Below are positions 20,340-25,274 of a stretch of DNA of 36,442 nt, piece by piece. Each line of letters starts with the position of its first letter. The first letter of the stretch is position 1. Where the stretch lies: NCBI GenBank assembly GCA_031280685.1, contig JAITGM010000003.1, forward strand, positions 1 through 36,442, in the 5' to 3' direction. The position numbers were made by a program, and so were the translations under genes. The notes beneath the pieces are model-generated. The model was not told the DNA's origin and made no database searches. It saw only the letters and a program-made list of their open reading frames with translations. This stretch comes from Christensenellaceae bacterium. GTDB lineage: Bacteria > Bacillota > Clostridia > Christensenellales > UBA1750.

Positions 20340-21209
20340 CTACGGAGCCGCGAAACAGCATTCGCTCGCTTCGATTTCAAAAACCTCGGCCTGGTGCACC
20401 CGCAGGCCGCCTTCCGCAAAAAGGCGCAGCCCAGCGCCGTCCGCGTCCGTGGGGAAGGCCAGGGCCGAAAGGCAGTCGCCGCCGTTAAAGAATACCTCGA
20501 TGGCCGGGCCGTCAAGGTAAAGGCGCAGCTCGTTGATGCCCTGGCCCAGCACCACGCCGCCTTGCGGCCCAAGGCCGCCCGCCATGGAGCAGTCCAGGCT
20601 CAGCCCCTCGGTCGCGCCGTCAAAGCGCAGGGCCGCCTTTTGGCCGTTTTCGCCGCGCAAGCACTCGAAATTCAGCGCGGAAGCCCCGGCTTCGAAGCGA
20701 ATCACAGCCCCCAGATGCCGCCCTTCGATGCCCTTGAGCGGATTTTCGCCTTCGTGCAAGGAAAAATCCCTCTTCAAAAAGAGACGCTTTCCGCGCAGCC
20801 TGCCCATTTCGGGCACCGGGCGCAGAAACAGGCCCCCGTCGCGCCGCAGGCCAATGGCCCTGGGCAAGGCTGGGAAGCTCATCCCCTTTTCCTCACTCAC
20901 AAGCTCGCCGCAAAGCAGCGCGTCGCCTCCGGGCCGCAGGGCCAGCCGCGGATTTTGGTAGCTTGCGCCAAAATCGACGGGAAAGGGCTTGCGGAAGGCG
21001 TATTCCTCGCCCTTGCGCAGCCCGAAGCGCGCCATCACGCGCTTTTCGCCCTCCCTTTGGCAAAGGAGCAGCGCCTTTTCGCCTTCAAGCGGCAGCAGGC
21101 AGCGGTTGATCTGCCCCTCTTCCCCGGGGAGCCCGGCGGCCAGCGATTTTGCCTCCTCAAAGGCGAGGCGTGGGATCAATCCAAAAATTGGCCGATTAAA
21201 TTCTTCCAA
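20340..21209 (-). CDS. GH32-like protein lacking the catalytic propeller half
   Basis: The 289-residue protein matches only the C-terminal part of glycoside hydrolase family 32 (invertase/levanase). DFGASYQNP (79-87) corresponds to the D-x-G-x-DFYAP strand. PRAIGLRRDG (116-125) and PVPEMGRLRG (131-140) match the end of the propeller, and the rest is the beta-sandwich with LRLYLDGPAIEVFFNGG. The catalytic motifs WMNDPNG, RDP and EC are absent. The TTG at 21209 has GGAGGAAG 6 nt upstream and there is no longer frame, so it looks like a real gene. It may be a remnant or a carbohydrate-binding derivative. Confidence 0.75.
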   Translation of the reverse strand: MEEFNRPIFGLIPRLAFEEAKSLAAGLPGEEGQINRCLLPLEGEKALLLCQREGEKRVMARFGLRKGEEYAFRKPFPVDFGASYQNPRLALRPGGDALLCGELVSEEKGMSFPALPRAIGLRRDGGLFLRPVPEMGRLRGKRLFLKRDFSLHEGENPLKGIEGRHLGAVIRFEAGASALNFECLRGENGQKAALRFDGATEGLSLDCSMAGGLGPQGGVVLGQGINELRLYLDGPAIEVFFNGGDCLSALAFPTDADGAGLRLFAEGGLRVHQAEVFEIEASECCFAAP

Positions 21210-21401: not shown

Positions 21402-21430
21402 TTGCTTTTTTCCCAAGGCCGCCGTATAAT
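21402..21430 (+). promoter_or_regulatory. Promoter of the structured leader and zinc-ribbon gene
   Basis: TTGCTT (21402-21407) and a perfect TATAAT (21425-21430) with a 17-bp spacer. Transcription would start near 21437, almost 290 nt before the start codon. Confidence 0.82.
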
Positions 21431-21436
21431 ACGTTT

Positions 21437-21700
21437 AGTTGCTCGAACTTGAGGTTTCGTTCAGGTCTGTGGTTGTAAGTCGATGCCAGTCGCGGGCGAA
21501 ACGATCCACGTAAGCTCATCAAAGCATGGGCGAGCATAGCGCGGCCTAGAAGTAAGTCCGGCCGGGGGCGTCAAGCGCGGCCCCGAGAGTTGCAAGTAGT
21601 GGGGAGGGTTAACACCCTTAGGAGCGAAGCATCCAGCCGGCGAATGTGGGGTTAAAGACCAGGTCAGCTGGGCAAAACAACAAGGCGCGAGTAACAAAAG
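21437..21700 (+). ncRNA. Long structured RNA upstream of the zinc-ribbon gene (raiA-motif candidate)
   Basis: Between a strong promoter and the next ribosome binding site lie about 260 nt with no reading frame of note and clear RNA features. Helices include CGGCC/GGCCG around 21541-21562, GGGT-TAAC-ACCC near 21607-21618, and a long-range CCAGC/GCTGG pairing near 21633 and 21668. Purine-rich single strands such as GGTTAAAGACC fit a folded RNA. The general look (GAGGTTTCGT start, long multi-helix body, zinc-ribbon or raiA-type neighbour) recalls the raiA-motif RNA of Bacillota, but I cannot confirm the family. It could be a stand-alone RNA or a long cis-regulatory leader. I see no terminator before the gene. 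Confidence 0.55.
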
Positions 21701-21723
21701 ACTTTTCGGAGGGATACCTAACC

Positions 21724-22005
21724 ATGTACGAAGACAAGACTTTGGTGTGCAGAGACTGCGGCGCGGAATTCGTTTTCACCGCCGGCGAGCAGGCATTTTA
21801 TGCCGAGAGGGGCTTCCAAAACGAGCCTTCCCGTTGCAAGGCCTGCCGCGATGCCCGCAAGGCGACCGGCGGACGCAGGGATGACCGTCCCCGCGAAATG
21901 TACGACGCGGTTTGCGCCGAGTGCGGCCGTCCGACCAAGATCCCCTTTATTCCCAAGAACGACCGCCCGGTTTATTGCAGCGAGTGCTTCCAAGCTCGTA
22001 GGTAA
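21724..22005 (+). CDS. Zinc-ribbon domain protein
   Basis: The 93-residue protein has two zinc ribbons, each with two CxxC pairs: CRDC and CKAC in the first half, CAEC and CSEC in the second. The halves are joined by a basic, Arg-rich linker (ATGGRRDDRPRE). Such tandem ribbon proteins are common in Clostridia and may bind nucleic acid or ribosomes; the function is not known. I use the ATG at 21724, with GGAGGG 10 nt upstream. It is preceded by a long structured RNA and followed by a terminator, so it forms a one-gene unit with its leader. Confidence 0.9.
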   Translation: MYEDKTLVCRDCGAEFVFTAGEQAFYAERGFQNEPSRCKACRDARKATGGRRDDRPREMYDAVCAECGRPTKIPFIPKNDRPVYCSECFQARR

Positions 22006-22038: not shown

Positions 22039-22073
22039 GCAAGGCGCTTCTGAATTGAGGCGCCTTGCTTTTT
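22039..22073 (+). terminator. Terminator of the zinc-ribbon gene
   Basis: A 9-bp stem (GCAAGGCGC/GCGCCTTGC) with a 12-nt loop is followed by five T. A textbook intrinsic terminator 33 bp past the stop. Confidence 0.92.
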
Positions 22074-22143: not shown

Positions 22144-23892
22144 ATGCTTGAAGGCGCTTACGAGATTCTTTCGCTCACCCTGCGGTATTGGTTCATCGCG
22201 CTGCTGCTGGCGGCGCTGTTTTTGCTGCTGCGCCTATTTTTGCGCGAGCTGCGGGTTTTTCGCGCAATCGGCCGGGAAATCGAGCGCTCGAGCCGGGATT
22301 TTACGCTCAGGCTGCTCTCTGATCCTGATCGGCTGCTTGTGCAGGGCAGTTCCTTCCCGCTCAGGGGCGAAATGCTGTTGGGCAGCGGCAGGGGCGCCAA
22401 TTTGCGCATCCAAAACGGGAGCCTTTTTGCCCAGCACGTCCTGCTGCGCGCGGAAGACGGCGGGCTTAGCCTGGAGCCCGTGGGCAACGCGCTGGTGGCC
22501 GTCGCCGGCGAGGAACTCGACAAGCGCGGCTTCGCCCGCGCGGGGGACGAGCTTCAAATCGGCGAGCTGCTCTTTCGCCTTGAAGAGAGCAACCCCCTTC
22601 TTAACGAAGAGCACACCCGCAGGGCGGCGCGGGAGCCCAGCTTCCGCCTGCCGGGGCAGGATTGGATTCTGCTCTTCCTCTGCGTGTTCGAATTCTCCGG
22701 CTTTGCGCTGTTGAGCTTTTATAAGGGCTTTTCGCCGCTCTCTGCCGCGCTGGCCGCGGCGATGCCGCTGGGGCTGGTGCTTTTTTCACGCCTTTCGCGG
22801 CGCTTTTTGCCGCATATGGATCAAAGCCTGCTGCTCATCGGGCACTTTCTGTGCGCGCTGGGGCTGATTTTGCTGGTGCGGCTCAGCCCCGAGCGCGCGG
22901 GCAAGCAGGCGCTGTTCTATTTGGCCGGCGCGGCGCTCTCGTTCCTGGTGACGGCGCTGGTGGCCAAGCTCAAAAGCTTTGCCTTTTTGCGCTGGCCCGC
23001 CATCCTGCTCTCGCTGGGCCTGCTGGGCGCCACGCTGCTGCTGGGCACCGAAAAATTCGGCGCGAAGAACTGGCTGGGTGTGGAAGGCTTTAGCTTCCAG
23101 CCCTCCGAATTCGTCAAAATCGCGCTGATTTTGGTGCTTTCGCTGGCCTTGAGCCAGCGGCGCAGCCTGCCCTCGCTTTTGCCCGCCGGCCTGTTTGCCG
23201 GCGGCTGCCTTCTGCTCATCGTTTTGCAAAAGGATCTGGGCGCGGTGCTGATCTGCTTTTGCGTCTGCCTCTTTTTGTATTACGCGGCCACGGGCAACCT
23301 GGGCGTCAGCCTTTTCGCGCTCCTGCTGGCCGGGCTTGGGGCGCTGGCGCTCTACTTCCTCTTTGACCACGTGCAGGTTCGCGTGGCGATCTGGCGCAAT
23401 CCCTGGCGCAGCCCCGAGGGTTCGGGTTACCAAATCGTGCAAGCCCTGGTCGCCATCGCTTCGGGGGGCATGACGGGCCTTGGCCTGGGCCTGGGCAGCC
23501 CCAGCGTCGTGCCCTTGTATGATACCGACTTCATCTTCGCCGCAATCTGCGAGGAATTCGGCCTGGCCGTCGCGCTGATGACCCTTTTGCTCTATGCTTT
23601 GCTCTTCCTGCGCGCAAGCTTCATCGCCTCGCGCTGCCAGAGCGGCTTTGACGCTCTGGTCTGCGTCGGCGCGCTGGCCTCCCTCTCGATCCAGACCTTT
23701 CTCATCGTCGGCGGCGTCATCAAGATGATTCCCCTCACCGGCGTGACCCTGCCCTTCGTGAGCTACGGCGGCTCGTCGATCCTCTCGTGCATGATCCTTT
23801 TGGGGGTCTTGCAGGGGGTTTCGGTGCGCGCCGGGCGGCGCGAAGAAGAAGCCTACCTGCGCGCCCAGGCGCCAAGGGAGGCGGCAAGATGA
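22144..23892 (+). CDS. SEDS family (RodA/FtsW) glycosyltransferase with N-terminal FHA-like domain
   Basis: SEDS proteins polymerise peptidoglycan together with a class B penicillin-binding protein. The 582-residue protein starts with a membrane helix (13-34). An FHA-like domain follows (about 65-147; LGSGRGANLRI, then FAQHVLL, and AGDELQIGELLFRLEE). The RodA/FtsW membrane domain runs from about 173, with FSFQPSEFVKIALIL, GSGYQIVQALVAIASGG, DFIFAAICEEFG and LPFVSYGGSS. The FHA part keeps Arg83 and His98, but the usual Ser before the His is Phe, so phosphothreonine binding is uncertain. In Actinobacteria the FHA protein and RodA are separate neighbouring genes. The stop overlaps the next start (ATGA). 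Confidence 0.93.
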   Translation: MLEGAYEILSLTLRYWFIALLLAALFLLLRLFLRELRVFRAIGREIERSSRDFTLRLLSDPDRLLVQGSSFPLRGEMLLGSGRGANLRIQNGSLFAQHVLLRAEDGGLSLEPVGNALVAVAGEELDKRGFARAGDELQIGELLFRLEESNPLLNEEHTRRAAREPSFRLPGQDWILLFLCVFEFSGFALLSFYKGFSPLSAALAAAMPLGLVLFSRLSRRFLPHMDQSLLLIGHFLCALGLILLVRLSPERAGKQALFYLAGAALSFLVTALVAKLKSFAFLRWPAILLSLGLLGATLLLGTEKFGAKNWLGVEGFSFQPSEFVKIALILVLSLALSQRRSLPSLLPAGLFAGGCLLLIVLQKDLGAVLICFCVCLFLYYAATGNLGVSLFALLLAGLGALALYFLFDHVQVRVAIWRNPWRSPEGSGYQIVQALVAIASGGMTGLGLGLGSPSVVPLYDTDFIFAAICEEFGLAVALMTLLLYALLFLRASFIASRCQSGFDALVCVGALASLSIQTFLIVGGVIKMIPLTGVTLPFVSYGGSSILSCMILLGVLQGVSVRAGRREEEAYLRAQAPREAAR

Positions 23893-25274
23893 ACCAGATG
23901 CAAAAAAATATCCGCGCGCTAACCCTCGCCCTGCTTGTGCTCTTTGGCAGCCTTATCGTATACTTTTTCTATACGATTCCAGCCTACAGCGGGCGCTGGT
24001 TCGCCACGCCCTACAATACCCGCCTGCGCGCGGCCAAATCCAAGGTCATCCCCGGCGATATCTTTGACAGAAACGGCGTCTTGCTGGCCAGTACCGACGG
24101 CGACGGCTCGAGGCGCTACAAGGGCTCATCCAGCCTTAGGCGCGGGGTGGCCCATGTGCTAGGGGACCCGCAGGGCTTGGTGCCCACCGGGGCCGAAACC
24201 ATGTTTGCCGCCGAGCTTTTGGGCTTCCATTCCGGGCTTTTTGACCGATTTGCCCAGCTCTTCGCCGAAAGGCGGCGCGGCAGCGACGTGACGCTGACCA
24301 TCGACGCAGAGCTTTCCGCCTACATCGCCTCCGAGTTCCCCGATGGCTACGACGGCGCGGTGGCGCTGATGGATTACGAGAGCGGCGAGATCCTGGCGCT
24401 GTATTCCAGCCCGGCCTTCAAGCTCAGCGACCCTTCCGCAAGCGCCGAGGGCGCGCTGCTCAACCGGGCCTTGCAGGGGCGCTACGCGCCGGGTTCCATC
24501 TTCAAGCTGATCACCCTAAGCTGCGCGCTCGAAAACATCCCAAACGTGCTCGACCGGCAAATCGACTGCACGGGCCACCTGCAAGTGACCGGCGCGGTGG
24601 AAGTGACCGACACGAGCGGCGAAGGCCACGGGCACCTCACCATGCGAGAAGCCTTTGAAAAGTCTTGCAACATCGCCTATGCTTCCCTCGCCCTCGAGCT
24701 TGGGGAGGACGCCCTGCGCCGCACGGCGCGGAACTTCGGCTTTAACGGCAACTTCCTCTTCCCCGAGGTGATCGTCTACGAATCGCTCTTCCCCTCCTCC
24801 ATCGAAGACGAGGGCGAGCTGGCCTGGACCGGCGTAGGGCAGGGCAAGCTGCTGGCAAGCCCGCTGCACATGGCCATGATCGCGGGCGCCATGGCCAACG
24901 GCGGCGTGATGGCGCAGCCCAAGCTGCTCCTTAGCGCCAAGGATCAAAGCGGCGCCCTGCGCCAGGGCGCGGCGGCAAAGAGCTTCCAGCGGGCCGTTTC
25001 GGCCGATCAGGCCGCGATCCTGCACGGGCTGATGCTCGAAACCGTGCAAAAGGGCACGGCGACTAGAGCGGCCGTCAGCGGCCTTCAAATCGGCGGCAAG
25101 ACGGGCACGGCCCAGGTCAATTCCTCCGGCGGCAAGTACGAGCCCCATTCCTGGTTCATCGGCTTTTGCGAAGAAAAGCGCCTTTGCCTGGCAGTCGTCG
25201 TCGAAAACGGCGGCGCGGGCAGCGGCGCGGCCTCCCGCTTGGCGGGGAAGATCTTCAAAAAGGCCAACCGATAG
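23889..25274 (+). CDS. Class B penicillin-binding protein (transpeptidase)
   Basis: This enzyme crosslinks peptidoglycan as the partner of the SEDS protein encoded just before it. The 461-residue protein has an N-terminal membrane anchor (about 9-30), a short dimerisation region with PGDIFDRNG, and the transpeptidase domain with Ser203-x-x-Lys206 (SIFK), SCN at 259-261 and KTG at 404-406. It is short for the class, of the PbpA/PBP2 type found next to RodA in Clostridia and Actinobacteria. The ATG lies in a 4-nt overlap with the SEDS gene, so the pair is coupled. Confidence 0.95.
   Translation: MNQMQKNIRALTLALLVLFGSLIVYFFYTIPAYSGRWFATPYNTRLRAAKSKVIPGDIFDRNGVLLASTDGDGSRRYKGSSSLRRGVAHVLGDPQGLVPTGAETMFAAELLGFHSGLFDRFAQLFAERRRGSDVTLTIDAELSAYIASEFPDGYDGAVALMDYESGEILALYSSPAFKLSDPSASAEGALLNRALQGRYAPGSIFKLITLSCALENIPNVLDRQIDCTGHLQVTGAVEVTDTSGEGHGHLTMREAFEKSCNIAYASLALELGEDALRRTARNFGFNGNFLFPEVIVYESLFPSSIEDEGELAWTGVGQGKLLASPLHMAMIAGAMANGGVMAQPKLLLSAKDQSGALRQGAAAKSFQRAVSADQAAILHGLMLETVQKGTATRAAVSGLQIGGKTGTAQVNSSGGKYEPHSWFIGFCEEKRLCLAVVVENGGAGSGAASRLAGKIFKKANR

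Follow-up and report, generated by a model that had tools for sequence, protein, structure and literature searches.

The raiA RNA, renamed ModT in C. difficile, is described in the parts of the literature consulted here as an abundant, trans-acting RNA that affects sporulation and the growth transition and that folds compactly with two pseudoknots (PMC11706538, PMC11751092, PMC12286853, PMC11477304). Deletions of raiA in C. difficile and C. acetobutylicum were complemented in trans (PMC11706538). There are hints that the RNA associates with protein, and the sections of PMC11706538 consulted name no partner. The usual neighbours are given there as comFC (74%) and raiA/HPF (66%), and periplasmic-binding proteins are reported as neighbours as well, often hundreds of nucleotides off (PMC11477304). 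According to the consulted portion of Haack et al. 2025, variant 2 makes up 68% of the sequences and variant 1 keeps a short P6 stem-loop (PMC11751092).

We examined a 36,442-nucleotide stretch of a Christensenellaceae genome, hereafter the window, in which an earlier note had described a long structured leader upstream of a zinc-ribbon gene. The note had likened this leader to the raiA-motif class, with a new RNA family tied to tandem zinc-ribbon proteins as its fallback. When the window was searched against the Rfam covariance models with cmscan, as the note had proposed, RF03072 matched with 174 bits (E 2.5e-44). This is 73 bits over the gathering score of 101.3 and covers the model from end to end (1–209 of 209), which identifies the RNA as raiA. 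A new family was accordingly rejected; nothing speaks for it once Rfam has been searched, and we give it practically no chance. The family claim aside, the link to the zinc protein holds up and recurs at 34 of 44 raiA loci, as described below. The conserved cores of the window copy are GTCTGTGGTTG-AAGTCGATGCC on the 5′ side, where the raiA core pattern matches with 0 mismatches at 21465–21487, and ACCAGGTCAGC on the 3′ side, the latter read from the sequence. The genome carries one copy of the RNA. The region is thus a known raiA RNA and a new member of that family, a modest, textbook case. The features of the locus are collected in Table 1.

Table 1. Features of the raiA locus, in window coordinates.
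Feature	Start	End	Strand	Basis
Promoter: TTGCTT (21402–21407), 17-nt spacer, TATAAT (21425–21430)	21402	21430	+	Read from sequence
Predicted RNA extent, including the outer extension of helix P1 beyond the Rfam model	21438	21695	+	MFE fold; flank pairing
raiA (ModT) RNA, full length, Rfam RF03072	21456	21676	+	cmscan and covariation
Shine-Dalgarno GGAGGG of the zinc-finger gene	21708	21713	+	Read from sequence
93-aa protein with two treble-clef zinc domains (PF13451 zf_Tbcl and PF23477/TIGR04272)	21724	22005	+	Domain searches
Intrinsic terminator, 12-pair stem and T run, 3′ of the zinc-finger gene	22039	22068	+	Terminator scan

The secondary structure was examined in an alignment of 16 homologues, consisting of the window and 15 loci from a 41-genome set of relatives. 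The Rfam structure could be counted directly on this alignment, which made RNAalifold and a private covariance model unnecessary. Across the 16 sequences, 84.6% of 882 cells were paired, compared to a mean of 71.2% in shuffled alignments, and the covariation score was 0.392 versus 0.142. Changes on both sides were found in 27 of 56 base pairs, with a shuffled mean of 19.6 and 12–17 in controls where the partner was slid. Sliding the partner by 1–3 columns lowered pairing to 32–43%, and none of 500 shuffles reached any of the five covariation measures. Two of the pairs projected from Rfam, columns 84/111 and 89/106, form in 0 of the 16 sequences. The covariation that the earlier note had called for is therefore present, with all controls lower, and it supports the RF03072 consensus secondary structure.

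Folding energy was tried as structural evidence and proved uninformative: the window RNA folds with a z-score of −0.91, 41 of 200 shuffles folded equally well or better, and four short raiA sequences (see below) gave z-scores from −0.23 to −2.47. The energy by itself is unremarkable; the claim of structure rests on the covariance-model match and the covariation. It is on these grounds that the several helices described in the note hold up, the single-sequence fold being unremarkable. An extension of P1 beyond the Rfam model is suggested by the flanks. At the 11 loci of the window's family, 5′ and 3′ flanks from the same locus pair at a mean of −20.7 kcal/mol versus −12.9 kcal/mol when swapped, and over all 44 loci the means are −18.7 and −9.8 kcal/mol, the stretches compared including part of the model's own P1. 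The note's statement that the RNA holds no frame stands for the + strand, where the ORF listing has none of at least 60 aa within the RNA, but not for the − strand, which has a 78-aa ORF at 21461–21697. A GTG extension of the zinc gene is listed as well.

The RNA lies behind what the note had called a consensus promoter. The −10 element is a perfect match, while the −35 element matches 3 of 6 consensus positions, so the description fits only in part; a generic promoter scan of the window did not list the site. The layout itself recurs: TTGNNN, 16–18 nt and at least five of six TATAAT positions are found upstream of 40 of the 44 raiA loci, compared to 3.6% of shuffled upstream sequences. Transcription is expected to start near 21437, which leaves 287 nt up to the ATG at 21724 and agrees with the leader of almost 290 nt noted earlier. 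The 93-residue zinc-ribbon protein is likewise a real gene product, which scores 89.6 bits for zf_Tbcl (PF13451; cut-off 24) and 70.8 bits, also over cut-off, for zf_Tbcl_2, the CxxC-x17-CxxC domain (PF23477/TIGR04272). It is the only PF13451 protein encoded in this genome, and its gene starts 48 nt past the end of the raiA model. The terminator scan found no terminator-like site between the RNA and the gene. The site at 22039–22068 is by itself weak evidence, as shuffles average 1.9 such sites. Taken together, the promoter, the raiA RNA with its extended P1, the zf_Tbcl gene and the one terminator look like a single transcription unit. A sequence search gave the protein no relative of solved structure (best E 0.1). 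Its AlphaFold model (mean pLDDT 85.1, pTM 0.43) had 0 Foldseek matches in the PDB at E ≤ 0.001, so the fold search neither supports nor opposes RNA binding.

Other features were seen in the window. A 6S RNA at 360–535 (−) scores 73.1 bits against a gathering score of 46.4, and two tRNA genes, at 98–170 and 179–249 (−), lie beside it. At 20340–21209 (−) is a gene for a 289-aa protein whose only Pfam match is to the C-terminal domain of glycosyl hydrolase family 32, apparently without the catalytic domain. Encoded at 22144–25274 (+) are an FtsW/RodA/SpoVE-family protein, extended at its N terminus by a long stretch, and then a penicillin-binding transpeptidase.

The association of raiA with zf_Tbcl was examined at 44 raiA loci (window included), 22 from the 41-genome set and 22 more from a phylum sample, with kinship ignored in the counts. 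At 34 of them, in 14 families, a zf_Tbcl gene on the strand of the RNA has its start codon 31–48 nt downstream; the remaining 10 have no adjacent zf_Tbcl gene. The RNA was found in 22 of the 41 relatives (21 over the gathering score) and zf_Tbcl in 30. Both occur in 21, the RNA only in one (G040), zf_Tbcl only in nine and neither in 10 (Fisher p 9e-4). Across 239 genomes of the phylum, raiA was found in 23 (16 over the gathering score) and zf_Tbcl in 156. The protein family is thus far commoner than the RNA, most zf_Tbcl genes are without raiA, and zf_Tbcl does not need raiA. No hidden raiA was detected with permissive Rfam thresholds in 32 zf_Tbcl loci that lack an adjacent RNA match. The core pattern with at most one mismatch occurs in 21 genomes, all among the 23 Rfam carriers; since it adds no carriers, raiA is not grossly under-detected in the 239-genome sample. 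The exact core pattern had 0 occurrences in viral contigs. Some zf_Tbcl genes without raiA (L080, L089, L090, L092–L095) seemingly follow other structured leaders in which a CCTCC could pair with the ribosome site, although these align poorly. Sub-threshold matches to the cspA thermoregulator (gathering score 78) lie near zf_Tbcl at L098 943–1236 (−; 50.7 bits) and L099 2065–2405 (+; 68.5 bits).

The other neighbours of raiA vary. HPF genes were found in the flanks examined of 17 of the 44 loci and ComFC genes in nine, in searches with a few representative proteins at E 1e-4 over flanks that are in part short (432 nt downstream in L145). In the window's family (11 genomes), the 2.4–21 kb of flank on each side yielded neither HPF nor ComFC, SecA or flagellar genes, and the zinc gene stays beside raiA in all 11. 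A tblastn search of the 36-kb window had no HPF or ComFC match, and the HPF gene of this genome is on another contig, C38. These frequent neighbours are therefore absent near the window RNA, which is a departure from a frequent feature of raiA loci and not from a defining one. Elsewhere, the raiA-zf_Tbcl pair is flanked on one side by flaG-fliD-fliS-fliT flagellar genes or by recD2-comFC, and on the other by HPF, SecA and an amino-acid ABC transporter, the names other than zf_Tbcl being read from the sequences without a family search. At three of the 44 loci (L139, L140, L151), zf_Tbcl is replaced by a cold-shock protein gene, which lies 90–117 nt after raiA and is followed by HPF.

Terminators track the absence of the zinc gene. 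A terminator-like hairpin within 90 nt after raiA was found at 6 of the 10 loci without zf_Tbcl, compared to 2 of the 34 with it (Fisher p 7e-4, kinship ignored). One of these two hairpins lies inside the zf_Tbcl gene and the other is weak. The finder misses long loops, and by eye one is present in L143. These observations suggest two layouts for raiA: a gene by itself with its own terminator, or the leading part of a unit shared with zf_Tbcl. By its sequence the window locus has the second.

A shortened form of the RNA was also found before zf_Tbcl. Seven sub-threshold raiA matches of the phylum sample (L069–L075) score 42–59 bits, span 113–120 nt and all lie 40–44 nt before a zf_Tbcl gene. 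A scan of genome contigs for the two raiA cores spaced 48–78 nt apart gave 13 loci (L106–L118), and zf_Tbcl directly follows in all 13, the gene being truncated at the edge of the locus in L106 and L107. The carriers are Thermosediminibacter, Tepidanaerobacter, Fervidicola, Thermovorax and metagenome-assembled genomes titled Tepidanaerobacteraceae, Thermosediminibacteraceae, Thermoanaerobacterales (two) or only Bacillota bacterium (two), a group that we take to be the Thermosediminibacterales. In this form P6–P8 are missing, and the score is below the Rfam gathering score where scored. The 5′ and 3′ cores are invariant in the 15 distinct sequences, 13 of which were collected by a pattern that itself demands most core letters. 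In a hand-made register, P4 forms 5 of 5 pairs in all 15 sequences, with U-A/A-U (8/7) and C-G/G-U/G-C (8/6/1) exchanges that may reflect only one or two events. In the same register, the loop-to-loop match GCCG:CGGC of pseudoknot 1 was read in all 15. The short raiA may be a minimal RNA that still works or one on its way to being lost, and the invariant cores would favor the former. One locus, G114 (L184 1440–1630, −), has the same family label as five of the short-raiA carriers; here the raiA core is deleted, while the promoter, the outer P1 arms, the ribosome site and the zf_Tbcl gene are kept. A possible raiA remnant, ACCAGGTCGGCTAAGCAA, precedes zf_Tbcl in G072 (L078).

We propose that the window probably holds a gene for the noncoding raiA (ModT) RNA, and that this RNA is transcribed as one unit with the gene of the small zinc protein with its two treble clefs. 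Transcription would start near 21437 from a promoter of the sigma-A type, and the first ~260 nt would fold into the compact raiA structure closed by the long P1 stem. Polymerase, meeting no terminator, would read on through the zinc-finger gene and stop at 22039–22068. RNase cleavage and trimming at the foot of P1 would probably free the RNA, and the downstream piece would give the zinc protein. Action of the RNA in trans is the likeliest, given what is published on C. difficile and C. acetobutylicum, and on that precedent we take the window's raiA to be a trans-acting RNA that is produced along with a zinc protein. For this organism, the single transcript, the processing at P1 and the action in trans are what we infer, the single unit from the sequence.

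What the zinc gene does behind raiA is less clear-cut. It may only borrow the strong raiA promoter, the jobs of the RNA and the protein being unrelated, and we regard this as a serious possibility, if not quite an even one. It would suit the many genomes with zf_Tbcl and no raiA (156 with the gene, 23 with the RNA, of 239), the cold-shock gene in the place of zf_Tbcl, and G114, where the loss of the RNA core with retention of promoter and gene is the pattern expected if zf_Tbcl uses raiA's promoter. However, the pair persists in 14 families as the other neighbours change, which exceeds the needs of promoter borrowing. The RNA could instead be a cis-regulatory leader that, on sensing a ligand such as zinc, regulates the zinc gene at the level of translation or transcription. 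Rfam types RF03072 as "Cis-reg; riboswitch", the spacing to the gene is fixed and short at 31–48 nt, and a zinc protein is what comes next. Yet the published deletions in the two clostridia were complemented in trans (PMC11706538, as far as consulted), 10 of the 44 loci lack the gene, and no riboswitch expression platform, neither a switchable terminator nor a sequestered ribosome site, was found between the RNA and the zinc gene, with GGAGGG (21708–21713) outside P1 in the predicted fold. We therefore consider a cis-acting role improbable. A more tentative idea, which we hold to be rather unlikely as a whole, is that raiA and zf_Tbcl work together as a module of RNA and protein. The zinc protein, translated from the shared transcript, would bind or mature raiA or join it on the ribosome, and a core of ~100 nt (P1, P3, P4, P5 and pseudoknot 1, without P6–P8) would suffice for the part linked to zf_Tbcl, since the Thermosediminibacterales keep exactly the short form before this gene.

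Few bacterial RNAs are as abundant or as intricately folded as raiA/ModT, for which zf_Tbcl is a concrete candidate partner. The gene stands 31–48 nt behind raiA in 14 families and also behind the shortened RNA of the Thermosediminibacterales, a candidate minimal core. The literature searched, of incomplete coverage, has no mention of the raiA-zf_Tbcl link or of the P6-less form, either of which may appear elsewhere; the word "zinc" has 0 occurrences in PMC11706538 and PMC11751092. Compared to the PF13451/TIGR04272 family, for which no function is given, the window protein has both domains, each over its cut-off. With raiA/ModT the window RNA shares the full model match, the 5′ and 3′ cores, the covarying helices and a strong sigma-A-like promoter. 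Its surroundings differ from the published neighbours, as far as these were consulted, in that zf_Tbcl follows 48 nt after the RNA with no terminator between and HPF is on contig C38. Like variant 2 in the portion of Haack et al. consulted (PMC11751092), the window copy has a multi-stem domain of the P6–P8 type. In contrast, the short raiA of the Thermosediminibacterales lacks P6 altogether, whereas variant 1, as described there, has a short P6.
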